In this document: in pieces, positions 1 through 10,946 of the stretch | Position numbering within the stretch: position 1 is the first letter of the stretch | Layout: each line of letters starts with the position of its first letter | Assembly (NCBI GenBank): GCA_013003145.1 | Contig: JABDLH010000281.1 | Span: 1-10,946 of the forward strand | Length of the DNA: 10,946 nt | From: Flavobacteriaceae bacterium | Lineage (GTDB): Bacteria; Bacteroidota; Bacteroidia; Flavobacteriales; Flavobacteriaceae | Direction: 5' to 3' | Program-made: the position numbers and the translations under genes | The notes under the pieces: generated by a model | Seen by the model: only the letters and a program-made list of their open reading frames with translations | Told to the model about the DNA's origin: nothing | Database searches by the model: none

Positions 1-1
1 A

Positions 2-1138
2 TTTAACTCCATCCTCCCCCTCGCCGAAGAATGGGGAGATAAGGAAATGATCTCTGCCATATATATCAATATCGGCTGGACCTATATTCATATGGATCAA
101 CACCAGCGAGCTTTACAAAACCTGGAAAAGGGTTTAAACATGGCCGAAGAATACGACATCTACGGTAATATTTATACGGCCAAAGCTTTTATGCACGACC
201 TCTATGAGAAAGAAAAGGATTATGAAAATGCACTTGAGTATTACGAACAAGCGCAGACCATACGCCGCCAGATCTCTAACGAACGGAATACCCGCTACGT
301 GTATGACGTGATCTCTAGGGCCGAATCTGAGGAGCGTACTAACCAGATGGAGTCCCTGGCCCAGGAAAACGAATTGGTGAAACTAAGACTAAAAAGAAAC
401 CAGAACACCCTGATCATCAGCACCCTGGTCCTAGCTCTTTTCCTACTCATACTATACGTGTTCTACAGGCAATTCCAGCTGAAGAGCGATAAGAAACTGC
501 TTACCCTGGAACAAACCATGCTTCGCAGCCAGATGAATCCTCATTTTTTATTCAACTCGCTCAATTCCATCAAGTTATATATCATCAATAATGAGAAGAA
601 GAATGCGGTACACTACCTGAATAAGTTTTCCAAACTGGTGCGCAAAATCCTCGACGCTTCCTCTGTTAAGGAGATCTCCCTGGCCGAGGAATTAGAAACG
701 GTGAAATTATATATGAATATTGAGAACATTCGATTTAATAACGAGATCAATTTTACGGTACGCATCGACCAGGAAATAGATCCTTACCAGGTAAAGGTGC
801 CATCGCTCATATTACAGCCATTTCTCGAAAATGCATTGTGGCATGGGCTTTCATCTAAAGAAGGTGAGAAAAATATCGAGTTATATATCTCCCGGGAGAA
901 CAATAAGTATATGCAGATTGCCATTACCGATAACGGTGTTGGCCGCGATGCTTCTGAAGAATTGAAGAAAAGCAGGGTATTAAAGAGAAAGTCCCTGGGA
1001 ATAGACATCACAAAGGCGCGATTACGGAATTTCTCTAAGGCCTATCGTAATTCGTTTGAAATTGATATTATCGATTTGTTTGATCGCATGCGTCACCCTT
1101 CAGGGACCCGGATCATCCTGCATATCCCTACTTCTTAA
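2..1138 (+). CDS. TPR-containing LytS/YehU-type sensor histidine kinase (5' end cut by window)
   Basis: The reading frame stays open to the window edge, so the N-terminus is missing and the ATG at 47 is internal. Numbering from that Met, two helical TPR-like units are visible (about 3-35 and 43-76), then a short charged, coiled-coil-like stretch (about 92-118), one membrane helix (about 119-139) and a His_kinase (PF06580) domain. The phospho-acceptor motif QMNPHFLFNSLNSIK places the active His at 166. The ATP-binding part has the N-box LQPFLENALWHG (Asn262) and the G-box DNGVG (295-299). The family autophosphorylates and passes phosphate to a LytTR-type response regulator. In this group the TPR part is usually periplasmic with a signal peptide, which cannot be seen here. 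No response regulator follows, because the next gene is convergent, so a partner would lie upstream or elsewhere. The stop overlaps the end of the DUF3109 gene by 11 bp. Confidence 0.92.
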   Translation, partial: FNSILPLAEEWGDKEMISAIYINIGWTYIHMDQHQRALQNLEKGLNMAEEYDIYGNIYTAKAFMHDLYEKEKDYENALEYYEQAQTIRRQISNERNTRYVYDVISRAESEERTNQMESLAQENELVKLRLKRNQNTLIISTLVLALFLLILYVFYRQFQLKSDKKLLTLEQTMLRSQMNPHFLFNSLNSIKLYIINNEKKNAVHYLNKFSKLVRKILDASSVKEISLAEELETVKLYMNIENIRFNNEINFTVRIDQEIDPYQVKVPSLILQPFLENALWHGLSSKEGEKNIELYISRENNKYMQIAITDNGVGRDASEELKKSRVLKRKSLGIDITKARLRNFSKAYRNSFEIDIIDLFDRMRHPSGTRIILHIPTS

Positions 1139-1700
1139 GGTGTTCTTCGGCTACTTTTTCGAGCTCGGTATACCAATCCTGTCCAAATTTTCGGACCAGC
1201 GCATCCTTCACAAACTTATAGACGGGTACTTGTAGTTCTGTACCCAGGCTGCAGGCAGGATCACAAATCTGCCACTTATGATAATTCACCGCGGTAAGCT
1301 CTGTGTATTCCCTGACCCGTACCGGGTACAGGTGGCAGGAAACCGGTTTTACCCAATCCGTTACCCCGTCTTTGGCCGCTTGTTCAAGACCACAGAGTGC
1401 GGTGCCATTTTCTTCGAAAGTTACGTAAGCGCATTCTTTATTGTTGACCAGGGGAGTTTCCCAATCACCATCGGTCCCTTTAACAAAGGTCCCCTGCTGT
1501 TCTATAGCGGTAATCCCTTCGGGTCTCAGGTAGGGTCTCACCTTGGGATAAATTTCCCTCAGGATCTCGGTCTCCTCCACCTCAAGGGGAGCACCGGCCT
1601 CACCTTCTACGCAACATGCCCCTTTGCAGGCGCTTAAATTGCATACAAAATCGTTCTCGATGATCTCTTCAGAAACTATGGTCTTTCCCAGTTGAAACAT
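1128..1700 (-). CDS. DUF3109 family cysteine-rich protein
   Basis: This 190-residue protein resembles the DUF3109 family, which is common in Bacteroidota and has no established function. It has no signal peptide or membrane helix, so it is probably cytosolic. Nine cysteines are visible: C20, C25, C29, C30, C90, C103, C122, C146 and C150. They fall in the patterns C-x4-C-x3-CC near the N-terminus, PVSCHLYP (119-126) in the middle and CDPAC (146-150) near the end. This layout recalls YkgJ-type zinc- or iron-chelating proteins and suggests a bound metal or Fe-S cluster, which is inference. The start at 1700 is supported by a perfect -7 motif about 20 bp upstream. The 3' end overlaps the convergent kinase gene by 11 bp. 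Family assignment rests on remembered family features, not a search. Confidence 0.85.
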   Translation of the reverse strand: MFQLGKTIVSEEIIENDFVCNLSACKGACCVEGEAGAPLEVEETEILREIYPKVRPYLRPEGITAIEQQGTFVKGTDGDWETPLVNNKECAYVTFEENGTALCGLEQAAKDGVTDWVKPVSCHLYPVRVREYTELTAVNYHKWQICDPACSLGTELQVPVYKFVKDALVRKFGQDWYTELEKVAEEHLKK

Positions 1701-1720
1701 ACCCCTTAATTTAAGTCGGC

Positions 1721-1728
1721 CAAAGATA
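1721..1728 (-). promoter_or_regulatory. Bacteroidota -7 promoter box for the DUF3109 gene
   Basis: The minus strand reads TATCTTTG, an exact match to the Bacteroidota consensus TAnnTTTG. It lies 20 bp upstream of the ATG at 1700 and implies a leader of roughly 15 nt. No clear -33 TTG element is visible. Confidence 0.6.
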
Positions 1729-1794
1729 CCGCTTTGTTGTTGTTAACACAGTAATAATTTAATGGTTTCATAATCCAAGGCTGCTACTTTGACG

Positions 1795-1802
1795 TACCTT
1801 TG
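1795..1802 (+). promoter_or_regulatory. Bacteroidota -7 promoter box for the marC-family operon
   Basis: TACCTTTG matches TAnnTTTG exactly and lies 22 bp before the ATG at 1825. An in-frame ATG at 1789 lies upstream of this box, so a transcript from here could not include it. This supports 1825 as the true start. The -33 element is weak or absent. Confidence 0.6.
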
Positions 1803-1824
1803 TCGACTTTTAAAATTAATTGCT

Positions 1825-2427
1825 ATGAATTTAGACGTTCGTGAAATAGCTACCACCACCATGGTACTCTTTGCTGTAATTGATATACTGGGCGGAATCC
1901 CTGTCATTGTCAGTTTACGTAATAAGGTAGGTCATATACAGTCCGGGAAGGCAACCATAGTAGCTGCCTGTATCATGGTCGCTTTCCTCTTTGTCGGGGA
2001 AGAGATCCTGAACCTGATCGGCATAGATGTAAATTCATTTGCGGTGGCAGGTGCTTTCATCATTTTTTTCCTGGCTATAGAAATGATCTTAGGGATCTCC
2101 CTGTATAAGGATGACGAACCGGAGAGCGCTTCTATTGTTCCCATAGCATTTCCGCTGATCGCAGGTGCGGGAACCCTTACTTCTTTATTATCTTTGCGGG
2201 CAGAGTATCACGTGGAGAACATCATTGTCGCCATTATACTGAACACCATTTTTGTTTACCTGGTATTAAAGTCGTCCGGACGTATCGGGCGCTTCCTGGG
2301 GAGGAGCGGATTAAGTGTTATCCGCAAAGTATTTGGTGTGATCCTGATGGCTATCGCTGTAAAATTATTTGCAGCCAATGTGCACCAATTATTCGCGATA
2401 CAGGAGAACCTAGCAATCCTTAAGTAG
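1825..2427 (+). CDS. MarC family (UPF0056) integral membrane protein
   Basis: From the ATG at 1825 the product is 200 residues, close to the usual MarC length, with about six hydrophobic helices. Family features include the first-helix segment DILGGIPVIVSL, the mid-protein FPLIAGAGTLTSLLSL stretch (compare the family's PLxxGPG motif, here with Ala for Pro) and the C-terminal GVILMAIAVKLF helix. MarC proteins sit in the inner membrane. Their early link to multiple antibiotic resistance was later withdrawn and the substrate is unknown. An in-frame ATG at 1789 would add 12 residues, but it lies upstream of the promoter box at 1795-1802, so I prefer 1825. The next gene starts 2 bp after the stop, so the two are almost certainly cotranscribed. 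Confidence 0.9.
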   Translation: MNLDVREIATTTMVLFAVIDILGGIPVIVSLRNKVGHIQSGKATIVAACIMVAFLFVGEEILNLIGIDVNSFAVAGAFIIFFLAIEMILGISLYKDDEPESASIVPIAFPLIAGAGTLTSLLSLRAEYHVENIIVAIILNTIFVYLVLKSSGRIGRFLGRSGLSVIRKVFGVILMAIAVKLFAANVHQLFAIQENLAILK

Positions 2428-2429
2428 TT

Positions 2430-2633
2430 ATGAACAAATACCTGAGTATAATTTTAGTCGTGCTGGCACTGGCCCTTATTGCCTACAATGTAACGGTGGT
2501 CAATTTTAATGATCCGCTGCAGGGTGACAGTACTATTGCTATTATCGGGATAGTCGCGGCACTTTGTGCTATTGTGCTTATCCTGATCTTCAATACTTCT
2601 AAGAAGATCCAAAAAAAGATAGAAGAGGATTAA
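2430..2633 (+). CDS. small two-helix membrane protein, function unknown
   Basis: This 67-residue protein starts 2 bp after the marC-family stop and is probably translated from the same mRNA. It has two hydrophobic segments, about residues 4-24 and 35-54. They are separated by a short polar loop with acidic and asparagine residues (NFNDPLQGDS), and a charged tail KKIQKKIEED follows. I recognise no catalytic motif. The strict coupling to a MarC-family gene makes a membrane partner or accessory role plausible, but this is inference. The stop codon overlaps the stop of the convergent protease gene inside a 12-bp palindrome. Confidence 0.75.
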   Translation: MNKYLSIILVVLALALIAYNVTVVNFNDPLQGDSTIAIIGIVAALCAIVLILIFNTSKKIQKKIEED

Positions 2634-2646
2634 TCCTGATTAATCA
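2626..2646. repeat. two adjacent palindromes over convergent stop codons
   Basis: AGGATTAATCCT (2626-2637) is a perfect 12-bp palindrome, followed at once by TGATTAATCA (2637-2646), a perfect 10-bp palindrome. The stop codons of the plus-strand small membrane protein (2631-2633) and the minus-strand protease (2632-2630) overlap inside the first. A role as a bidirectional transcript end is possible, but there is no T-tract and no loop, so a classical terminator is not supported. Confidence 0.45.
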
Positions 2647-4249
2647 TAGGAGTTTCAGGCTGCTCCAGTTGCAGTACTTTCTGCAACATGGGGTCATTTT
2701 CAGCTTTAATCCTGGCCTGTTGATTAGGCCCGAATAACTGTGCAGCCAGGGCGGCTTTCAGGTATCCTTTAATCCGCTCCTCCATGTCGTAATACCGGAG
2801 GTTCAGCTTCTGTACCAATGGCCATCGTTCCGCGTAATTGATGAAGTTCTCAAAAAGAATATCATCCACATTGAAACTGTTCATGAATTCCTGTTCACTC
2901 ATCTTCATATAGCGGGTCCTGTCTTCTTCCAGGTGGTCAAAGATAAACCTGGAGAATAAGCCGAAGGAACTGTCCAGGCTTTCTACCGCTTCTTCCTCAT
3001 GAGAGCCTATAGGCACAAAAACATCAGGGATGATCCCTCCCCCACCGTAGACCACTTTTCCTTTAGGGGTCTCAAAACGAAGGGAATCAGCTACCTTTAT
3101 ACTATCGGCCTCCATTAACTCGCCATTCTCATAACGATTCATAAATCGCTCGTAGTAATCCTCGGTACCGTTATCATAACTTTTCTGGATAGAGCGTCCT
3201 GTGGGTGTATAATACCTGGAAACGGTCAGTCTTACTGCAGATCCGTCACCCAGTTCCATTTCTCTTTGTACGAGACCTTTCCCAAAGGATCGTCTCCCAA
3301 CAATAGTTCCTATATCGTTATCCTGTAAAGCCCCGGCGACGATCTCGCTGGCCGATGCGGAACGCTCATTGATCAGGACATAGACCTGTTTATTCTCAAA
3401 ACTCCCTTTCTTAGTAGCATAGGTCTTTTCGACCTTGCCTTTTTTGTTCTTGGTAAAAAGAATGAGTTTACCATCCTGCAAGAACTCGTCAGACATTTTC
3501 TGAGCAATGCCCAGGTAGCCCCCCGGGTTATCCCTCAAATCGAGTACGAGTTTCTGAGCGCCTTTCTTCTGCAGGTTTCGCAATGCCCTGGTAAATTCTT
3601 TATAGGTAGATTCCGCGAAACGGTTCACTTTGATATACCCCAAATCCTCATCCAGCATATATTGTGCCTCTACACTGCTCAGGGGAATACGGTCTCTCCG
3701 GATATCCACATCAAATGTTTTGTCCCCTGTTTTCCTGTAGATCTTAAGTTTAACAGAGGTACCTTCTTTTCCTTTAAGTTTACTGACGATATCTGCACTG
3801 GGCAGTCGTTTCCCGAATAAGGTATCCGTATTCGCCATCAGGATACGGTCACCGGGCTTTATCCCTTTTTCTTCACTGGGGCCATTCTGAACCGCCCGGA
3901 TCACGGCGATGGTATCTTTATACATATAGAAGTTCACCCCTATCCCTACGAAATCGCCTTTCATATTCTCGGAGACCTGTTTCATATCCTCTTTAGGGAT
4001 GTATACCGAATGCGGGTCCAGTTTGTCCAGGATATTGTTCACCGTTACATCTACAATGCTGTCCGTATTGATATCGTCTACATATTCATAGTCGATATAA
4101 TCGATCAATCGATTTAGCTTGTCTTTTTTAGAATTGGTCGTGAAGAGTTTTTCAGGTGTGTCGTTGAAATTCAGTTTACCGCCAAGAAATATCCCGCATG
4201 CCAAGGCAAGGGCAACAACTGTAGGCCATAAGTAATACTGTTTTTTCAT
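2630..4249 (-). CDS. S41 family carboxyl-terminal processing protease
   Basis: This 539-residue protein is a CtpA/Prc-type serine protease with a Ser-Lys dyad. An N-terminal hydrophobic segment (about 7-24) should export it to the periplasm, probably membrane-anchored. Cys18 within it is a poor lipobox match. A helical region with the LDPHSVYI motif (77-84) is followed by a PDZ domain (about 95-185, including the GIKPGDRIL loop) that binds substrate C-termini. The protease core carries LVLDLRDNPGG (235-244), the nucleophile Ser299 in SASASE and the general base Lys324 in SFGKGLVQ. Their spacing of 25 residues matches known members. About 120 extra residues after IIPDVFVP form a helical C-terminal extension, as in Bacteroidota homologues. 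The gene starts 10 bp after the deaminase stop, so the two form an operon. Confidence 0.95.
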   Translation of the reverse strand: MKKQYYLWPTVVALALACGIFLGGKLNFNDTPEKLFTTNSKKDKLNRLIDYIDYEYVDDINTDSIVDVTVNNILDKLDPHSVYIPKEDMKQVSENMKGDFVGIGVNFYMYKDTIAVIRAVQNGPSEEKGIKPGDRILMANTDTLFGKRLPSADIVSKLKGKEGTSVKLKIYRKTGDKTFDVDIRRDRIPLSSVEAQYMLDEDLGYIKVNRFAESTYKEFTRALRNLQKKGAQKLVLDLRDNPGGYLGIAQKMSDEFLQDGKLILFTKNKKGKVEKTYATKKGSFENKQVYVLINERSASASEIVAGALQDNDIGTIVGRRSFGKGLVQREMELGDGSAVRLTVSRYYTPTGRSIQKSYDNGTEDYYERFMNRYENGELMEADSIKVADSLRFETPKGKVVYGGGGIIPDVFVPIGSHEEEAVESLDSSFGLFSRFIFDHLEEDRTRYMKMSEQEFMNSFNVDDILFENFINYAERWPLVQKLNLRYYDMEERIKGYLKAALAAQLFGPNQQARIKAENDPMLQKVLQLEQPETPMINQD

Positions 4250-4259
4250 CGATCAGCTT

Positions 4260-4700
4260 TTAGATCACTCTCTCCTCGATCACCGGGAGGTGCTGCAGTT
4301 CAACACCTGCTCTTTGCAGGAATTTTAGCCCGGAATCGTCTTTATACGCCGTTTGGTATACCACACGTTTTATGCCAGACTGGTGAATCAGCTTACTGCA
4401 TTCCTTGCAGGGAGACATGGTGATGTACAGGGTTGCCCCCTGGCAACTCTGGGTAGAAGATGCCACTTTTAATATGGCGTTGGCTTCAGCATGCAATACA
4501 TACCATTTTGTATAGCCTTCTTCATCTTCACAAAAGTTCTCGAACCCCGTGGGAGTTCCGTTATAACCATCAGAGATGATCATCCGGTCCTTTACGATGA
4601 TGGCCCCTACCTGCCGGCGAACACAATAGGATAATTTACCCCATTCATACGCCATCCGTAAATAAGCCTTGTCGTATTTTGCTTTTTTCCCCTCGTTCAT
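4260..4700 (-). CDS. dCMP deaminase-like cytidine/deoxycytidylate deaminase
   Basis: This 146-residue zinc enzyme belongs to the deoxycytidylate deaminase family, which converts dCMP to dUMP for thymidylate synthesis. The zinc site is complete: His70 and the catalytic Glu72 in HAEANAI, and Cys98 and Cys101 in SPCKEC. The segment GYNGTPTGFENFCE (45-58), typical of the dCMP deaminase branch, lies upstream, and SYCVRRQVGAIIVKD (24-38) is the conserved N-terminal strand region. The length is normal for the family. It is the first gene of a two-gene unit with the downstream protease (10 bp gap). A promoter with a well-spaced -33/-7 pair lies upstream of the start at 4700. No functional tie to the protease is apparent. 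Confidence 0.92.
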   Translation of the reverse strand: MNEGKKAKYDKAYLRMAYEWGKLSYCVRRQVGAIIVKDRMIISDGYNGTPTGFENFCEDEEGYTKWYVLHAEANAILKVASSTQSCQGATLYITMSPCKECSKLIHQSGIKRVVYQTAYKDDSGLKFLQRAGVELQHLPVIEERVI

Positions 4701-4734
4701 AAAGGTAATTCGGGTTGCGGGATTCTAATTGCTA

Positions 4735-4766
4735 CTAAGATACCTGCTTTAAGATCGCTTCACAAA
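4735..4766 (-). promoter_or_regulatory. candidate promoter for the deaminase-protease operon
   Basis: On the minus strand TTTG (4766-4763) is followed after 20 bp by TATCTTAG (4742-4735). The second element differs from TAnnTTTG at one base, but the spacing fits the 19-21 bp Bacteroidota rule. The implied leader before the ATG at 4700 is about 30 nt. Confidence 0.5.
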
Positions 4767-4783
4767 CCCCATACGGTTAATTT

Positions 4784-5386
4784 TTAATTAAAACACGCCT
4801 TCCAATTAGGGAACGTATCGATCAGCATCGGTATTGTGGCCAATCCTATAATTATCGCTCCCACAGTAATATACCACTGCGGTTTAACTTTAAACTGTGA
4901 GCGGAAAAGAAAGTTCAGTCCCAGTACCACGAGCAGGATCACCAGCTGTGATAATTCTATCCCTGTGGCAAAACCAAGTAGTGGCCCTGCCTTGGAGGTC
5001 TCCCCGGCCATCAGCATATTAAAGTAATTGGAAAAACCGAAACCATGGATCAGGCCAAAGAATGCCGCGGACAGGCTGTGCATATACAAATCCGTCTTGT
5101 CTGCATCCCTTTGGGTATACAACATACTAAGCACTGCGGTAATGACAATGGTGATCGGAATCAGGAATTCTATACACTCAGCGGGCACCCGGAAGAGTTC
5201 ATAAACCGAAAGCGCCAGGGAGGTACAATGAAAAATAGTGAATACCGTGGCCAGGAATAACACTTTTTTCCAGCCTTTAAAGGTAAACGGAAGGGCCAGT
5301 GCCGCGAGGAAGAGGATATGGTCATAAGCCCCAGGATCCAAAACGTGCTTATATCCCAATTCTACATAAAACCCGAATTCTCCCAT
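4784..5386 (-). CDS. HupE/UreJ family membrane protein
   Basis: This 200-residue inner-membrane protein has six to seven hydrophobic segments. It resembles the HupE/UreJ family, some members of which import nickel or cobalt for hydrogenase or urease. Likely metal-binding or structural motifs are His14 and Asp22-His23 in the N-terminal GYKHVLDPGAYDHILFL, His53 in FTIFHCTSLALS, His114 in GLIHGFGFSN, and Glu144 with Gln147 in GFATGIELSQL. No hydrogenase, urease or cobalamin gene is present, so the substrate cannot be read from context. A metal-transport role is family-based inference. The gene starts 33 bp after the stop of the upstream TerB-DnaJ gene on the same strand, so cotranscription is likely. 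The chosen start gives the family's usual short N-terminus before the His-Asp-His motif. Confidence 0.87.
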   Translation of the reverse strand: MGEFGFYVELGYKHVLDPGAYDHILFLAALALPFTFKGWKKVLFLATVFTIFHCTSLALSVYELFRVPAECIEFLIPITIVITAVLSMLYTQRDADKTDLYMHSLSAAFFGLIHGFGFSNYFNMLMAGETSKAGPLLGFATGIELSQLVILLVVLGLNFLFRSQFKVKPQWYITVGAIIIGLATIPMLIDTFPNWKACFN

Positions 5387-5419
5387 GGTCTGCTATTTAT
5401 TGTCGGTCAATTAAATTGC

Positions 5420-6151
5420 TCAGAGCCCTCGTTCGCGCTGAATCTGTTCGTAGGCTTTCTGTACTTCTTTAAATTTTTCCTCCGCACCTTTTTTGATCGC
5501 TTCATCTTTAGTGATTACACGGTCCGGGTGGTATTTTTTCGCCATTGTACGGTATGCACTTTTCACTTCATCGTCTGTGGCCGTTCGTTCTATTTCCAGA
5601 ATTTTATAGGCGGTATCTGCCGATTTTATGAACATGGCCTTAATACTCTCAAAGTCGTGAGACCCAATCCGGAGGTACCCGGCGATTTCTGACAGCTTGG
5701 CGATCTCCGCCGGGCTTGCCGATCCGTCTGCCTGTGCGATCCCGAAAAGAAAATGCAATAACTGCAGTCTTACTTCGTAGCGGGTACGCTGGTTAAGGAA
5801 GGCACAGATATGCTGTGCAGAAATCTCACGTTTTTTAACAACATCGTTAAATGTGCGGAAGATCGCATTGGCTTTTTCCTTTCCATAGGTGCTTAAAAAA
5901 TATTGCCGGACATAGTCGAGCTCTCGCTGGCTAACCTGCCCGTCTGCTTTGATGACTATAGAACAGAGGGAGAGCAGGTGTAATTCAAAATCAGATGGGG
6001 ATACCTGTTGCCTTGTAAAGTCACTGAAGACCGTCCTGCCTCCCCCGGACCTGGTTTGTGAATCCAATAAGCTTCCCAGGAAAAAACCTATTAATGCCCC
6101 GGGCAGTCTAAAGAAGAAATAGCCCAGGATGGCCGCTATCCATTTGATCAT
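5420..6151 (-). CDS. DjlA-like membrane cochaperone with TerB and DnaJ domains
   Basis: This 243-residue protein has the DjlA layout. A short glycine-rich N-terminal membrane segment (about 4-29, with [20 protein letters not shown]) comes first, then a TerB-like helical domain (about 54-165, with the acidic motifs [11 protein letters not shown] and [11 protein letters not shown]), then a C-terminal J domain (about 180-240). The J domain has the essential HPD tripeptide at 208-210 and stimulates the ATPase of a DnaK-type Hsp70. The protein is probably anchored in the inner membrane with the J domain in the cytoplasm. The linker SGGGRT (35-40) is flexible. A perfect -7 box sits 20 bp upstream of the start at 6151. 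The HupE-like gene follows after 33 bp. Confidence 0.93.
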
Positions 6152-6170
6152 ACGTCTCTAAAAATTTAGG

Positions 6171-6178
6171 CAAATATA
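6171..6178 (-). promoter_or_regulatory. -7 promoter box for the TerB-DnaJ / HupE-like operon
   Basis: The minus strand reads TATATTTG, an exact TAnnTTTG match, 19 bp upstream of the codon that starts at 6151. No good -33 element is visible at the right spacing. Confidence 0.55.
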
Positions 6179-6248
6179 GGACATTGCAGAGGATTTGCAG
6201 TTCGGTTTCAGTACGAAGCACAGAGTGGGTAATGTGCTATGAATTGGT

Positions 6249-6256
6249 TATCTTTG
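6249..6256 (+). promoter_or_regulatory. -7 promoter box for the bacilliredoxin gene
   Basis: TATCTTTG matches TAnnTTTG exactly and lies 27 bp before the ATG at 6284. An A-rich leader (AAAAAAAAGAG at about 6270-6280) precedes the start. This A-richness, rather than a full Shine-Dalgarno sequence, is typical of the phylum. Confidence 0.6.
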
Positions 6257-6283
6257 TAGCCTGAAATTTAAAAAAAAGAGCAT

Positions 6284-6694
6284 ATGTATCCTGCAGAATT
6301 AGTAAAACCAATGAGAGAAGACCTGGCGTCTGCCGGTTTCCGTGAATTATATTCCGCTGAAGAAGTGGAAAAAGCTATAAACCAATCCGGTACCACTTTA
6401 GTTGTGGTGAACTCGGTTTGTGGTTGCGCAGCTGCTAATGCACGCCCGGGAGCTAAGATGAGCCTGGACAACAGCAAGACCCCAAGTCAGTTGGTTACAG
6501 TATTTGCCGGGGTAGATACCGAAGCTGTAAATGCAGCCCGTGACCTGATGGTGCCATTCCCTCCATCATCACCCAGCATGGCATTATTTAAAGATGGTGA
6601 GTTGGTGCACATGATAGAGCGTCATCATATAGAAGGAAGGCCTGCGGAACTTATCGCAGAAAACCTGAAAGAGGCCTATAACGAATTCTGTTGA
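6284..6694 (+). CDS. BrxA/BrxB family bacilliredoxin (YphP/YqiW family)
   Basis: This 136-residue protein of thioredoxin-like fold is full length for the family. The redox motif Cys46-Gly47-Cys48 lies in VVVNSVCGCAAANARPG, and a third cysteine is the last residue (Cys136), as in characterised bacilliredoxins. Further family landmarks are the N-terminal MYPAELVKPMREDL and PFPPSSPSMALFKDGELVHMIERHHIEGR (92-120). In Firmicutes these enzymes remove bacillithiol from S-bacillithiolated proteins. Here the presence of the gene suggests bacillithiol or a derivative as a low-molecular-weight thiol, which is inference because no bsh biosynthesis gene is in the window. The gene is transcribed alone, between its own promoter and a terminator. 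Confidence 0.95.
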   Translation: MYPAELVKPMREDLASAGFRELYSAEEVEKAINQSGTTLVVVNSVCGCAAANARPGAKMSLDNSKTPSQLVTVFAGVDTEAVNAARDLMVPFPPSSPSMALFKDGELVHMIERHHIEGRPAELIAENLKEAYNEFC

Positions 6695-6739
6695 AAAGAC
6701 AGGGAGTAATGTCCTCTATACAGAAAGCATAATTTGGTT

Positions 6740-6768
6740 AAAAACCGTTCGTATCCGGGCGGTTTTTT
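6740..6768 (+). terminator. intrinsic terminator after the bacilliredoxin gene
   Basis: An 11-bp stem pairs 6740-6750 with 6757-6767. AAAAACCG pairs with CGGTTTTT, then come two G-U pairs and one C-G pair. The loop is GTATCC and the stem ends in a T6 run (6763-6768). The last T is also the first base of the -7 box of the next gene. Confidence 0.75.
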
Positions 6769-6775
6769 ATTTTTG
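6768..6775 (+). promoter_or_regulatory. -7 promoter box immediately before the plsC-like gene
   Basis: TATTTTTG matches TAnnTTTG and ends only 4 bp before the ATG at 6780. If it is used, transcription would start at or next to the start codon, giving a leaderless mRNA. The box lies in a T-rich terminator tail, so the match could be partly fortuitous. Confidence 0.4.
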
Positions 6776-6779
6776 AGTC

Positions 6780-7508
6780 ATGAGAAAAATATTCGCCTAC
6801 CCGTTAACGGTGGTTTATTTTATCTTTTTCGGTTTACTGCTACTGATCTTCCACCCCATACAGTGGATCTGCCTTAATATCTTCGGATATGATGCGCATA
6901 AGAAAAGTGTCAGTATCATGAACCTGGGTATCCTCCGGTTAACCCATTTATTAGGTACGCGATATTCTTTTAAGAAGGAAATTGAATTACCCGAGGACAG
7001 GCCTTTGATTCTCGTAGCCAATCACCAGAGTATGTACGATATCCCCATGATCATCTGGTTTTTACGTGCCTGTCATCCAAAGTTTGTCAGTAAAATGGAA
7101 TTAGGAAAAGGAATCCCGAGTGTTTCTTATAATTTACGCCATGGTGGATCTGTCCTGATCAATCGAAAGGATTCGAGGCAGGCCCTGACAGAGATCTCAA
7201 AACTGGGCAGGTATATTGAAGAGACCAAAAGGGCAGCGGTCATTTTCCCGGAAGGCACCCGGAGCCGCGATGGCAACCCCAAGAAATTCCAGCTGATGGG
7301 ACTCCGGATACTGATGAAAACGGCACCTTCTGCCCTGGTAGTTCCCATTTCGATCAACAATTCATGGAAAATGCTGCGGTACGGGAAATTCCCCCACGGC
7401 ATCGGTAGTCATTTAAAGATGCAGGTGCATGCCCCCATAGAACAAAACAGTGATCCGGAAGCACTACTGGCCAAAGTAGAAAAGAAAATCAAAGAAAACA
7501 TAAGATGA
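6780..7508 (+). CDS. plsC: 1-acyl-sn-glycerol-3-phosphate acyltransferase (PlsC family)
   Basis: This 242-residue membrane-associated enzyme should transfer an acyl chain to lysophosphatidic acid to make phosphatidic acid in phospholipid synthesis. An N-terminal hydrophobic hairpin (about 8-35) anchors it. The catalytic block NHQSMYD (81-87) provides the His82-x4-Asp87 pair. VSKMELGK (103-110) and the GSVLINRKD stretch (123-131) correspond to block II. FPEGTRSRDG (156-165) is the phosphate-binding block III and VVPISI (187-192) is block IV. The start at 6780 is fixed by an in-frame TGA at 6774-6776, while the next Met (residue 47) would remove the anchor. The 3' end overlaps the next gene by ATGA, suggesting coupled translation. 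Related lyso-ornithine or other lipid acyltransferases share these motifs, so the exact acceptor is less certain. Confidence 0.93.
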   Translation: MRKIFAYPLTVVYFIFFGLLLLIFHPIQWICLNIFGYDAHKKSVSIMNLGILRLTHLLGTRYSFKKEIELPEDRPLILVANHQSMYDIPMIIWFLRACHPKFVSKMELGKGIPSVSYNLRHGGSVLINRKDSRQALTEISKLGRYIEETKRAAVIFPEGTRSRDGNPKKFQLMGLRILMKTAPSALVVPISINNSWKMLRYGKFPHGIGSHLKMQVHAPIEQNSDPEALLAKVEKKIKENIR

Positions 7509-8164
7509 GCGACGCAGAGATCGTAGAACAAACCATCGCCTTTGTAAAGGAAACCCTCATGGGAGCTGAAGGCGGGCACGACTGGTTCCATATCCGACGC
7601 GTTTTCAACAATACCTTACTGATTGCCAAGGACGAGAAAGTAGATATCCTGGTCGTTAGCCTGGGAGCCCTGCTCCATGATATTGCAGACGCAAAGTTTC
7701 ACGGTGGAGACGAAAAGATCGGTCCCAGGATGGCCCGAGAATTCCTGAATTCCTTAGGGGTACCCAAAAAAACCATCGCCCACGTGGTAAAGATCATTAA
7801 ACATATCTCCTTTAAAAACTCCCTCTCCAAAACCAAGAGACCATTTAACTCTCGGGAGTTGCAGGTGGTCAGGGATGCAGACCGGTTGGATGCCATAGGT
7901 GCTATAGGGATTGCCCGGGCTTTTAATTACGGCGGCTTTAAAAACCGGACCCTGTATGACCCGGATATACAGCCCAAATTAAATATGAGCAAGGAAGAGT
8001 ACAAAAAATCTGAAGGACCTACCCTTAACCACTTCTACGAAAAACTATTACTGCTCAAAGATGGAATGCAGACCAAAACCGGCAAGAAAATAGCGGAAGG
8101 GCGGCATCAATTCATGCTGGATTACCTTCAGCAGTTCTACGACGAATGGAATGGTCGCCTCTAG
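7505..8164 (+). CDS. HD-domain metal-dependent phosphohydrolase (YedJ/YpgQ-like)
   Basis: This 219-residue soluble protein has the full HD-domain signature: His29 in GHDWFHIRRV (24-33), the His58-Asp59 pair in LLHDIAD, a possible fourth histidine at His100 (IIKHISF), and an aspartate in RDADRLDAIGAIG (123-135; the ligand is probably Asp124). The N-terminal HDW-x-HI-x-RV pattern and the DADRLDAIGAIGIAR stretch recall the YedJ/YpgQ branch. B. subtilis YpgQ, from that branch, has been described as a nucleotide pyrophosphohydrolase, but the substrate here is unknown. It begins within the stop of plsC (ATGA overlap), so translation is probably coupled. No functional link to lipid synthesis is evident. 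No clear terminator is visible in the 104 bp that follow. Confidence 0.9.
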   Translation: MSDAEIVEQTIAFVKETLMGAEGGHDWFHIRRVFNNTLLIAKDEKVDILVVSLGALLHDIADAKFHGGDEKIGPRMAREFLNSLGVPKKTIAHVVKIIKHISFKNSLSKTKRPFNSRELQVVRDADRLDAIGAIGIARAFNYGGFKNRTLYDPDIQPKLNMSKEEYKKSEGPTLNHFYEKLLLLKDGMQTKTGKKIAEGRHQFMLDYLQQFYDEWNGRL

Positions 8165-8268
8165 TATTTTTTCAAATCCCTATCTTAATTTTTAACCCGC
8201 GCTGTCTCTGAATCCGGACATTGAATTTTTGTGTATCTTCAGCATTCACCAAAAATGAATGACCAGCC

Positions 8269-9693
8269 ATGCAGCGAAGAAAATTTATAAAAAATGCAGC
8301 CGCTACTTCTGCGGCTTTTTCTATAGTTCCCAGTTATGTGCTCGGGAAAGGACACGTGCCTCCATCTGACACCCTGTACGTCGCCGCTTTTGGCGTTGGG
8401 GGACGAGGAGCCGGAGTCATGAACGGCCTTGACCGTACCGGGAAGGTGAAATATGTCGCCTTTTGTGACGTAGACCAGCGCAGGGCTGCAGATACCTATA
8501 AGAAATACCCCGATGTAAAACGCTATACTGACTTCCGCGATGTCTATGACAAACAGCTGAAGGATATTGATGCTATCATGGTGGCCACCCCGGATCATAA
8601 CCATGCGAGTATCGCCCTGCCTTTTATGCGGGCTAAGAAACACGCATACGTAGAAAAACCCCTGACTCACACCATCCGCGAGGCAAGGTTGATGACCGAG
8701 GCGGCCCGGGAAAACGGGATCGTCACCCAGATGGGGAACCAGGGGGCATCCAGTGATGGCAGCCGGGAAGCACGGGAATGGATAGACAGCGGAGTTATCG
8801 GGAAGATAGAACGGGTTGATTGCTGGACCAACCGCCCGGTATGGCCACAAGGGGTGCCGGTACCTACAGAAAAACACCCCATTCCTAAAGGCTTGGACTG
8901 GGATCAGTGGTTAGGACCTGCAGAAATGCGCGATTATAACGATGCTTACCTCCCATTTAAATGGCGAGGCTGGTGGGACTTTGGAACCGGGGCTTTAGGG
9001 GATATGGGATGCCATATCATGGAAACTCCTTTCAGCGTACTAGACCTGGGTTACCCCACGGAAGCTGAAGCCAGCTGCACCACGAACTGGGTAGGTGATT
9101 TTGTCGAGGCTGATTATAACGAATCATGCCCTTCATCTTCTATTGTACGATTAAAATTCGATACGCCTAACCACGGACCTATAGGACTTAACTGGTATGA
9201 CGGCGGAATTATGCCCGATCTTCCGGACGAATTAAAAGATGGGGAAACCATTGGTGATACCGGTGGAGGTACTGTCTTTTACGGATCTAAAGGGATACTG
9301 GTAACCGATGTATACTCCAGGAATGCGCGTATTCTACCTTCCAGCATGATGGACCTGCTGAATAAGCCTAAGCCTTACCTGGAACGGATAGAAGGAGACA
9401 CCGACGGGCACCAGAAGAACTGGGTTGAAGGATGCCTGAACGGAACTGCTACTTCATCGGATTTCAAGAAGGCGGGACCACTGACAGAGGCCGTACTGAT
9501 GGGGAACCTGGCGATTAAAGCTTTCCAGCATAAAGAGCTGAAGCCCGGCAAGAAATTAGGGGATTGGGATCCTTTCAATTACCCGGGTAGGATGAAATTA
9601 AAGTGGGACGGTGAAAACATGAGAGTCACCAATTATGACAAAGCCAACGATTGGGTTCGTGGTGAATATCGAAAGGGCTGGGAACTCAGTTAA
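8269..9693 (+). CDS. Tat-exported Gfo/Idh/MocA family oxidoreductase
   Basis: This 474-residue protein starts with a twin-arginine signal (RRKFIK at 3-8, then a weakly hydrophobic Ala-rich stretch to about 26), implying folding with cofactor before export to the periplasm. The Rossmann domain has GVGGRG (42-47) for NAD(P) binding, and the conserved EKP triad is at 129-131. The C-terminal domain carries GTGALGDMGCHI (239-250), where Asp245 and His249 fit the family catalytic pair. Such exported members in Bacteroidota and Planctomycetota act on sugars or glycosides, often by transient keto-sugar chemistry. The substrate here is unknown. Two upstream ATGs (8255, 8259) are out of frame, so 8269 is the start and the Tat motif confirms it. 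It stands alone and is followed by a strong terminator. No glycoside hydrolase or SusCD genes adjoin it. Confidence 0.93.
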   Translation: MQRRKFIKNAAATSAAFSIVPSYVLGKGHVPPSDTLYVAAFGVGGRGAGVMNGLDRTGKVKYVAFCDVDQRRAADTYKKYPDVKRYTDFRDVYDKQLKDIDAIMVATPDHNHASIALPFMRAKKHAYVEKPLTHTIREARLMTEAARENGIVTQMGNQGASSDGSREAREWIDSGVIGKIERVDCWTNRPVWPQGVPVPTEKHPIPKGLDWDQWLGPAEMRDYNDAYLPFKWRGWWDFGTGALGDMGCHIMETPFSVLDLGYPTEAEASCTTNWVGDFVEADYNESCPSSSIVRLKFDTPNHGPIGLNWYDGGIMPDLPDELKDGETIGDTGGGTVFYGSKGILVTDVYSRNARILPSSMMDLLNKPKPYLERIEGDTDGHQKNWVEGCLNGTATSSDFKKAGPLTEAVLMGNLAIKAFQHKELKPGKKLGDWDPFNYPGRMKLKWDGENMRVTNYDKANDWVRGEYRKGWELS

Positions 9694-9720
9694 GTCGACT
9701 TACAACTTCCACGCTATATC

Positions 9721-9756
9721 AAGGGCGGTTCAGAATAAACTGAGCTGCCCTTTTTT
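9721..9756 (+). terminator. intrinsic terminator of the oxidoreductase gene, inside the convergent gene's 3' end
   Basis: A 13-bp stem pairs 9721-9733 with 9740-9752, with loop AATAAA (9734-9739) and a T6 run (9751-9756). Two pairs are G-U in the plus-strand RNA (9727/9746 and 9729/9744). In the minus-strand RNA these become C-A and A-C mismatches, and no T-run follows, so the signal is directional and serves the plus-strand gene. It overlaps the last codons of the radical SAM gene. Confidence 0.85.
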
Positions 9757-10803
9757 ATACTGCTGATGCAGGCTGTTGTCTAAGGGAGGAAAAGACCGGT
9801 CATGGAAATACTGCTTTTTAGCCAGTTTTACCATGTCGTGAATTTGTTTGGCCAGGATGCCATCTCCTTTATTTCGTAGTCCGAACCTACTGTCGTTTAA
9901 GCTTCCCCCGTGACATTCAGCTATCTGGTGCAATACTTTATCCGCCTTGTCAGGCATGGCCTTCCTGATCCAGTCTGTAAAGATCTGTCCTATGGCCCCG
10001 TTTAAGCGAACCACCGTAAATGAGAAAGACCTGGCACCGTGATCGGCAACAGCCTTGGCCATGGGCAGAACCTCATGGCTGTTGATACCCGGGATGATTG
10101 GGGCCAACATGGCATTAACCGGGATATTATTATCGGATAGTTCTTGTATTGCCTGTAGTCGCTTGGCTATGGTAGCTGTCCTGGGCTCCAGGATCCGCCT
10201 GGTCTTTTCAGACAGCGAAGTAACAGAGATGTTGACCCCTAGCAGGTTGTGTGCCGCTAATTCTTTCAGCAAGTCCAGGTCTTGCAATATCCTGGAATTC
10301 TTTGTGATGATCCCGACAGGATGCCGGTATTTCAGGAATATTTCGAGACATGCCCTGGTAAGCCTGAATTTTTCTTCTGCCGGTTGGTAGCAGTCCGTAT
10401 TCCCCGACAGCACTATAGTTTCCGCTTTCCAATTCTTAGACCGCAGCTTCTCCTCCAACAAGGCCGGGGCATTTTCCTTGACCAGGATGCGGGTCTCAAA
10501 ATCCAGGCCGGCACTATAGCCCCAGTATTCGTGCGAATTCCGGGCATAGCAATAAATACAGCCATGCTCACATCCCTGGTAGGGATTCAGGGACCAATTC
10601 ATCCCAACATCCGGACTGGTGACCTTATTCACAATAGTTTTGGGAAAAATCGGCAGGTATTGTGTCTTCCCGGGGCTCAGGTCCTCGCCTTCTGCACGCA
10701 TGTATTCCAGGAAATCATCCCTGGTCTCATAGCGATGCTGATGGAATTTGTTATCAGGATTCTGCTGGGCGCCACGGCCTTTGTGAAAGCTGTCTGGGTT
10801 CAT
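9730..10803 (-). CDS. PA0069-family radical SAM protein (spore photoproduct lyase-like) with C-terminal QLSLF
   Basis: This 357-residue enzyme has the radical SAM cluster motif Cys78-x3-Cys82-x2-Cys85 (GCEHGCIYCYARN), which binds a 4Fe-4S cluster that cleaves S-adenosylmethionine. The next landmarks, SGNTDCYQPAEEKFRLTR (133-150), IITKNSRILQDLDLL (165-179), NISVTSLSEKTRRILEPRTA (191-210) and MLAPIIPGIN (232-241), are typical of the PA0069 family, which is related to SplB and uncharacterised as far as I know. The N-terminus (GRGAQQNPDNKF, 9-20) is also a family hallmark. The protein ends in QLSLF (353-357), which equals the consensus peptide that binds the bacterial beta sliding clamp. This suggests work at replication or repair sites. 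It is monocistronic. The promoter region carries paired palindromes, and the 3' end contains the opposite gene's terminator. Confidence 0.92.
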   Translation of the reverse strand: MNPDSFHKGRGAQQNPDNKFHQHRYETRDDFLEYMRAEGEDLSPGKTQYLPIFPKTIVNKVTSPDVGMNWSLNPYQGCEHGCIYCYARNSHEYWGYSAGLDFETRILVKENAPALLEEKLRSKNWKAETIVLSGNTDCYQPAEEKFRLTRACLEIFLKYRHPVGIITKNSRILQDLDLLKELAAHNLLGVNISVTSLSEKTRRILEPRTATIAKRLQAIQELSDNNIPVNAMLAPIIPGINSHEVLPMAKAVADHGARSFSFTVVRLNGAIGQIFTDWIRKAMPDKADKVLHQIAECHGGSLNDSRFGLRNKGDGILAKQIHDMVKLAKKQYFHDRSFPPLDNSLHQQYKKGQLSLF

Positions 10804-10806
10804 TTA

Positions 10807-10840
10807 TTGGATTTATTCCAAAATTATGGATTATTTCCAA
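10807..10840. promoter_or_regulatory. paired palindromic sites, possible operator of the radical SAM gene
   Basis: Two similar inverted repeats lie just upstream of the minus-strand start at 10803: TTGGA-n5-TCCAA at 10807-10821 and ATGGA-n5-TCCAA at 10826-10840. They are spaced 19 bp apart and share TGGATT at the left and TTCCAA or TCCAA at the right. The likely -7 box (10819-10826) sits between and partly within them. Two spaced dyads over a promoter are typical of a dimeric repressor or activator site, but no regulator is known for this sequence. Confidence 0.45.
10819..10826 (-). promoter_or_regulatory. candidate -7 promoter box for the radical SAM gene
   Basis: The minus strand reads TAATTTTG, an exact TAnnTTTG match, 15 bp upstream of the ATG at 10803. 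The implied leader is about 10 nt. No -33 TTG is seen at the right spacing. A second match lies further upstream in the tandem repeat (10910-10917). Confidence 0.45.
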
Positions 10841-10906
10841 TTTACTGCATTTGTTCGTGTTAATTCTGGGCTTTGAGAGTTTACCTCCCTTTAGGTGGAT
10901 AGGATG

Positions 10907-10946
10907 GGACAAAGGTACATAGGGACAGAGGTACATAGGCACATAG
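10907..10946. repeat. 16-bp tandem repeat reaching the window edge
   Basis: GGACAAAGGTACATAG (10907-10922) is followed directly by GGACAGAGGTACATAG (10923-10938), with one base different, and then by a partial unit GCACATAG (10939-10946) cut by the window end. On the minus strand the first unit contains TACCTTTG (10917-10910), a perfect -7 box pointing at the radical SAM gene. The second unit has TACCTCTG. The array may continue outside the window. The 10841-10906 stretch between repeat and palindromes shows nothing else that I can support. Confidence 0.7.

Follow-up and report, generated by a model that had tools for sequence, protein, structure and literature searches.

Why should a radical S-adenosylmethionine (SAM) enzyme end in a peptide by which polymerases bind the replication sliding clamp? 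The question is raised by a 10,946-nucleotide stretch of DNA from a Flavobacteriaceae bacterium (GenBank assembly GCA_013003145.1, contig JABDLH010000281.1, positions 1 to 10,946 of the forward strand; hereafter the window). Its minus strand carries, at 9730..10803, a PA0069-family radical SAM gene with an ATG start that encodes a protein of 357 amino acids. The C-terminus of this protein reads ...LHQQYKKGQLSLF, followed by a TGA stop, and its last residues are KKGQLSLF. Translation confirmed the original prediction that the final five residues encoded by the gene, residues 353–357, are QLSLF (9733..9747, minus strand), a predicted sliding-clamp-binding motif. The explanation we favor, to which we assign a probability of roughly 0.8, is that the SOS response induces the window protein, a radical SAM enzyme, and that this C-terminal peptide docks it on the sliding clamp, DnaN.

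The window protein is a full member of the PA0069 family. It matched the NF033668 (rSAM_PA0069) profile with 467.4 bits against a cut-off of 360, over profile positions 1–348 of 348, and it matched PF04055 with 74.5 bits. The closest sister model, that of the Rv2578c family (NF038135), gave 197.9 bits, far under its cut-off of 430. Among the matches listed, the nearest protein was from Zeaxanthinibacter, with 97% identity. The window genome (G000) is itself incomplete (309 contigs, 68% complete).

QLSLF is the motif found at the extreme C-terminus of PolC from B. subtilis, and the peptide binds B. subtilis DnaN with a dissociation constant of 3.8 µM, while QMGLF, another QxxLF motif, binds approximately 20-fold more weakly (PMC12309361). 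Because of this 20-fold difference, a match to the consensus alone leaves the affinity unfixed. The revised clamp consensus takes two forms, Q-φ-x-[L/M]-[F/L] and Q-φ-x-[L/M]-x-[F/L], in which the glutamine is helpful, although not absolutely required, and the terminal LF is critical (PMC13254535). Positions 2 and 3 of clamp-binding motifs are loose (PMC12309361, PMC13254535), as they are in the family studied here. QLSLF fits the shorter, five-residue form, and orthologues conserve positions 1, 4 and 5. The window protein shares with polymerases such as PolC both the pentapeptide and its C-terminal position; here, however, the motif sits on a radical SAM enzyme. We know of no radical SAM enzyme among the described clamp clients.

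In an alignment of 61 proteins, 37–97% identical to the window protein, Q353 was conserved in 58 proteins, L356 in 60 proteins and F357 in 57 proteins. L or M predominated at position 354, and almost any residue was accepted at position 355, with an entropy of 3.02 bits. Mean column entropy over residues 325–352 was 2.46 bits, as compared with 1.31 bits for the core (residues 60–315), and we take the poorly conserved tail immediately before the motif (residues 333–352; 9748..9807, minus strand) to be a linker. The tail thus diverges up to a conserved island, QLSLF, at its end.

The least biased sample of tails comprised all 79 full-score matches from an even draw of 198 Bacteroidota genomes, 78 of which carried a full-score copy. 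QxxLF was present in 67 of the 79, or in 70 when QxxMF and QxxIF were added. The pentapeptide lay within six residues of the end in 66 (63 QxxLF, 2 QxxMF and 1 QxxIF), QxxLF lay at least 11 residues from the end in four (L194, L210, L213 and L225), and three had hexapeptide-like ends (L117, L137 and L188). The best 80 genome loci of a longer list yielded 71 pentapeptides and one hexapeptide-like end, and the motif was found in all 19 tails of full-score relatives. The window protein is itself counted in this tail census and in the neighbor control and operator counts given below (as L098), and it occurs twice in one conservation set (L006 and L098); L009 and L100, apparently one genome, are likewise both included in the neighbor control and operator counts. 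Nine of the ten below-cut-off paralogues read in Bacteroidota (L108, L109 and L233–L240) lacked the tail motif, and one, L235, ends in EQFDLFG; phylum matches with E above 1e-7 fell outside this reading.

A pentapeptide can arise by chance, and we compared family members with their neighbors. The strict motif Q[LMIFVTYW]xL[FL] at the exact C-terminus was found in 77 of 125 family open reading frames (ORFs scoring more than 250 bits) and in none of 481 neighboring ORFs of at least 150 amino acids from the same loci. A looser motif, within five residues of the end, was found in 108 of the 125 family ORFs versus 6 of the 481 neighbors. At the DNA level, a scan of a same-genus genome (G003) for the pattern encoding Q[LIMVF]x[LF]F followed by TAA or TGA listed 17 matches, as compared with 13 when the pattern was reversed. 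Of the 17, 14 encode Q[LIMVF]xLF; frame length was checked for these, and the PA0069 gene was alone in having a frame open for more than 41 codons. The remaining three have F at position 4. In the window genome, scanned with TAA and TAG stops, there were six matches versus seven for the reversed pattern. The bare DNA pattern was thus not enriched in these scans. The evidence lies in conservation within the PA0069 family, and this conservation, together with the neighbor control, rules out a chance pentapeptide.

Similar tails were found in other phyla. The homologue sets obtained with the window, Aeromonas and actinobacterial queries were each the best 120 of 8,000 scored proteins and lean to close relatives; those for Pseudomonadota and Actinomycetota are best-match lists and not even draws, and the actinobacterial set is weighted strongly to Nonomuraea and its relatives. 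Of the 120 Aeromonas-query homologues listed (every one with a name belongs to Pseudomonadota), 106 carried the pentapeptide (96 LF, 8 LL, 1 MF and 1 LW), seven were hexapeptide-like (for example, QLGLDL and QLSLDGL), and three had the variant tails QLSFL, PRSLF and QMEFAGL. The 120 actinobacterial Rv2578c-type proteins listed included 105 with the pentapeptide (103 LL and 2 LM, mostly QLTLL or QLRLL), eight with hexapeptide-like ends (QLSLPGL, QLPLDL and QLTLPLL), and three that were variants or had the motif further inside. In the members read, the Rv2578c family resembles the PA0069 family, most of whose members that we read have a QxxLF C-terminus, in ending with such a motif, in its own case after a proline-rich tail. 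It differs in having a longer tail, with LL as the usual ending. Single tails included QLDLF plus four residues in Legionella adelaidensis, QLSLF in Paracoccus, QLSLL in Sinorhizobium, QLTMF and QLPLF in Azospirillum, and QGELF in Sphingomonas. More distant relatives ended in EQLSFF, EQLGF, QLSFL and QQSLFD in Clostridia (L154, L281, L282 and L283) and in QLSLGI in Gemmatirosa; given these clostridial ends, a tail of the clamp type may predate the split between the PA0069 and Rv2578c families. No such tail was present in the mobile pair protein B or in the plasmid sister proteins of Runella, Paenibacillus and Staphylococcus.

Conservation of the motif, which the original prediction had named as its decisive test, was thus borne out in Bacteroidota, in the Aeromonas-query homologues and in the actinobacterial Rv2578c sister family, there mostly as QxxLL. 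As judged from these sequences, variation within the family mostly obeys the rules of the clamp motif, including its two lengths and losses of the glutamine only. The proposal that the protein is recruited by the clamp is supported to this extent, with binding to DnaN as its predicted part, and we infer that such binding occurs in this organism.

The conserved letters could in principle reflect the DNA and not the peptide. A terminator-like hairpin of the convergent gene, by eye a Gfo/Idh-type oxidoreductase gene, lies at 9721..9752 on the plus strand (one found versus 0.3 expected in shuffles) and overlaps the QLSLF codons at the end of the radical SAM gene, so that the terminator might fix the letters of the motif. 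However, the motif codons of 153 family loci formed 135 distinct 15-mers, used both glutamine codons (CAG in 81 and CAA in 72), and included seven different codons at position 4, and the motif is kept in other phyla beside other neighbors. Because the codons vary this widely, the constraint acts on the peptide; their diversity refutes an overlapping terminator as the general cause, and we give this explanation practically no weight.

A constrained peptide might instead be a structural element, with the C-terminal QxxLF packing on the enzyme's own core or on a dimer interface and its hydrophobic residues reflecting folding. The motif was mostly at the exact end of the protein (116 of 153 motif-bearing loci), and in Bacteroidota the spacing from core to motif was fairly constant (37 residues in 70 of the 91 measured), as would be expected of such an element. 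Spacing varied, however (34–48, 36–44 and 41–92 residues in three groups; linkers were measured in 91 of 173, 101 of 120 and 112 of 120 sequences), and the actinobacterial linker consists of 31% proline and 20% alanine. Moreover, four loci keep the motif despite 11–16 residues after it, the family alternates between the five- and six-residue clamp forms, and position 355 varies freely. We consider a purely structural role unlikely.

As a positive control for clamp motifs in these bacteria, we took 30 DinB-type loci of relatives and read the C-terminus of DinB in 26 of them (L275–L278 were left out). All 26 ended in Q[LI]x[FLI]xF, the six-residue clamp form, within the last 12 residues. The QxxLF tail might also bind a member of the repair machinery other than the clamp, and this explanation gains from the fact that a partner cannot be named from sequence alone. 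Nevertheless, the combination of hexapeptide alternatives with loss of the glutamine only is the published pattern of the clamp pocket (PMC12309361, PMC13254535), and the DinB proteins read from 26 related genomes have C-terminal motifs of this class. A different partner seems to us very improbable.

A line of evidence independent of the tail comes from the region upstream of the gene, which is consistent with induction by DNA damage. GGA-N5-TCC and CTAA-N5-TTAG are motifs of the SOS network in Bacteroidetes, and an SplB radical SAM gene (COG1533) is placed under both (PMC8565304). Two GGA-N5-TCC palindromes, predicted operators of the Bacteroidetes LexA-like repressor, are present in the window at 10809..10819 and 10828..10838; they start 16 and 35 nucleotides before the ATG, 19 nucleotides from each other. 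GGA-N5-TCC was found in 24 of 125 Bacteroidota family upstream regions versus 12 of 391 controls; 21 of these 24 had two sites, and in 18 of the 21 the sites were 19 nucleotides apart. CTAA-N5-TTAG was found in 25 of 125 versus 8 of 391. With a different selection of loci, either operator was present in 39 of 101 deduplicated Bacteroidota upstream regions (102 had a recognizable start, and one duplicate was removed) versus 20 of 391 controls, the latter being the sum of the two motif counts (Fisher p = 2e-16).

The tandem GGA-N5-TCC pattern occurred at two places in each of four genomes (the window genome, G003, G001 and G004) and was absent from G008; the reversed control gave zero. In each of the four genomes one tandem site is at the PA0069 gene. 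The other lies 28 nucleotides before a DinB-type polymerase gene in the window genome and in G003, and in G001 it adjoins a DinB match by position. The radical SAM gene and the DinB-type polymerase gene have these operators in common. In the window genome (L242, contig C13) and in G003 (L241, contig C1), the tandem-operator DinB-type polymerase gene is followed by a frame which, by eye, resembles the start of DNA polymerase III alpha. LexA-type operators before the gene lend independent support to a role in DNA damage, as first proposed, and from them we infer that the gene is damage-induced in this organism.

LexA-type sites were also found outside Bacteroidota. Of 12 alphaproteobacterial loci, several of which share a genus, 11 had a GTTC-N7-GTTC direct repeat upstream of the gene (L285 had none); all 12 such sites in the 68,063 bases of these loci were upstream of the gene. 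In seven loci the site lay within 100 nucleotides of the annotated or nearest start, those of L161 and L288 were 41–165 nucleotides off, depending on the start chosen, and the N-terminal frame of L162 was ambiguous. Single cases were CTGTATATATAAACAG in Aeromonas caviae, starting 28–31 nucleotides before the gene start, GAACTGCTGTTC in Nonomuraea, 22 nucleotides before it, and GAACATGTGTTC in a Streptomyces, 57 nucleotides before it. None of the three LexA-type patterns was found upstream in L140, L152, L153 or L280. PA0069 of Pseudomonas aeruginosa is presumably a member of the LexA regulon of that species, although we did not rely on this.

These sites agree with published work on regulation. 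The gene class had been placed in LexA regulons by 2012, with splB regulation predicted in alpha- and betaproteobacteria and not seen in the gammaproteobacteria examined (PMC3323433); in view of that last result, the box in Aeromonas extends the published picture, by a single case. In S. venezuelae, the radical SAM gene vnz_31145 was up 19.97-fold with mitomycin C and had a LexA peak in chromatin immunoprecipitation (PMC9380542). SplB (COG1533) as a member of SOS regulons is alike in regulation, and the genes so named may belong to the PA0069 subfamily. The studies of SplB treat regulation; the word "clamp" did not occur in PMC8565304, PMC3765255 or PMC3323433, and "sliding clamp" did not occur in PMC9380542.

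Shared operators leave room for a protein that acts on the clamp by occupancy. An SOS-induced protein could fill the clamp pockets and displace polymerases while its radical chemistry is directed elsewhere, for example at RNA or a small molecule; that its operators are common to a polymerase gene, and that the literature we found names no substrate, would both suit such a competitor. Set against this, the cluster and core motifs are strictly conserved, which suggests that catalysis goes along with the tail, and two related radical SAM genes adjoin DNA repair genes. The CxxxCxxC cluster motif of radical SAM enzymes, CEHGCIYC (10549..10572, minus strand), has C78, C82 and C85 in 61 of the 61 aligned proteins. 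The conserved core motif NTDCYQPAE comprises residues 135–143 (10375..10401, minus strand), in which C138 is a cysteine in 40 of the 61 only. A conserved N-terminal motif, KGRGAQQN (10759..10782, minus strand), has G9, R10 and G11 invariant in all 61. We think a pure competitor has little chance of being the correct explanation.

Several observations weigh against an SOS-induced, clamp-docked enzyme as a general account of the family. The gene was found in 19 of 40 relatives and is missing from many others, and 62 of the 101 deduplicated Bacteroidota upstream regions had neither operator; a palindrome search in those 62 returned mostly AT-rich arms. One alphaproteobacterial site, that of L163, lies about 405 nucleotides from the nearest start. 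In the even phylum sample, four of 79 tails had lost the glutamine and kept the hydrophobic end (for example, SLSLF), and two had GLF alone left (L116 and L203). Six of the best 80 genome loci lacked the glutamine, and two failed the motif rule (L046, GMESLF, and L057, NYGLGI). Four Aeromonas-query homologues (P0158, P0162, P0164 and P0167) had no trace of the tail and appear truncated or frameshifted, and four of the 120 actinobacterial proteins had no tail; three of these are named partial, and the fourth likewise appears truncated or frameshifted. Finally, in G003 the second DinB type of the genus, which is the tandem-operator, SOS-linked one, had no C-terminal clamp motif, and neither did two MutS-type genes.

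What would such an enzyme act on? The original prediction had drawn on kinship with spore photoproduct lyase, a DNA repair enzyme, and this kinship proved weaker than implied. The two share a radical SAM core, and the literature groups the lyase with SplB-like genes, but the lyase models TIGR04070 and TIGR03886 did not match the window protein at E ≤ 0.001. In spore photoproduct lyase a further conserved cysteine serves as hydrogen donor. The 61 aligned sequences had no fourth invariant cysteine (C138 was present in 40 and C297 in 29). The lyase mechanism is unsupported by both the profile models and the cysteine pattern. For the gene class, the literature found offers no tested substrate and only an analogy to spore photoproduct lyase. 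Searches of solved structures yielded no close relative: one returned nothing, and another gave only SkfB and NifB over stretches of 51–79 profile positions. Matches were found in ten phage records, none reaching 80% query coverage and all below 60% identity, and in two viral contigs; this carriage offered no clue to the substrate.

Gene neighborhoods were varied. Clustering of neighbors (loci L009–L139) gave no universal partner, the most common neighbor family occurring in 25 loci. In one locus a frame that by eye resembles a RecQ-like helicase directly follows the PA0069 gene on the same strand (L042:4047-5939). On a Legionella adelaidensis plasmid the PA0069 gene, whose product ends in QLDLFAGIV, and a PolX polymerase gene are divergently oriented (L140:2320-3858). 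In Sphingomonas parapaucimobilis, dnaE lies in convergent orientation downstream of the PA0069 gene, separated from it by one small hypothetical gene (L284:2973-4050). In two Chitinophagaceae loci (L083:2177-2788 and L086:2153-2776), a protein of about 205 amino acids, by eye 2H-phosphoesterase-like, is encoded just upstream of the PA0069 gene and ends in TTKQGELFI or TTKQGELFM, an end of the QxxLF type. Tail-less sisters also have repair genes beside them: on a Runella plasmid (L156) the radical SAM gene adjoins a UvrD-type helicase, and on a Staphylococcus saprophyticus plasmid (L158) it adjoins a DNA glycosylase, an Ada-domain protein and a methylated-DNA cysteine methyltransferase, with a 2-oxoglutarate-Fe(II) oxygenase on its other side. 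These neighbors keep DNA damage in view and single out no lesion. Our guess at the substrate, most probably, is a polymerase-blocking lesion of a pyrimidine or another base.

A sequence of events can be proposed for an SOS-induced radical SAM enzyme that docks on DnaN. Upon DNA damage, the LexA-like repressor would leave both operators, and the enzyme would be made alongside the DinB-type polymerase. Its tail would enter the hydrophobic pocket of a clamp that sits on damaged or gapped DNA. Positioned near the primer-template, the radical SAM core would reverse or process a base lesion via a 5'-deoxyadenosyl radical. Probably, then, the enzyme is co-induced with the DinB-type polymerase, and DnaN keeps it where DNA is gapped or stalled.

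Taken singly, the family, the clamp motif and SOS control of genes of this kind were known before. In the literature searched, which included few subscription papers and no supplements, we did not find a radical SAM enzyme family described as a clamp client, and within the same limits nothing joined PA0069 with radical SAM; PA0069 alone was met as a strain name. We tentatively suggest, as an idea that falls somewhat short of even odds, that a clamp-riding radical SAM enzyme which treats polymerase-blocking base lesions in place forms a third arm of the SOS response, beside excision and translesion synthesis; as part of the same suggestion, this arm would span Bacteroidota to Actinomycetota, and the enzyme would compete with or precede the co-induced translesion polymerases for the clamp pocket. 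With a conserved clamp tail, the enzyme would be located at the machinery of replication or gap repair, and its last five residues offer a clean target for separation of function. If this is correct, the tasks carried out from the sliding clamp would come to include radical SAM chemistry, and this would be relevant to many species, given a full-score copy in 78 of 198 Bacteroidota genomes and related tails in Pseudomonadota and Actinomycetota.
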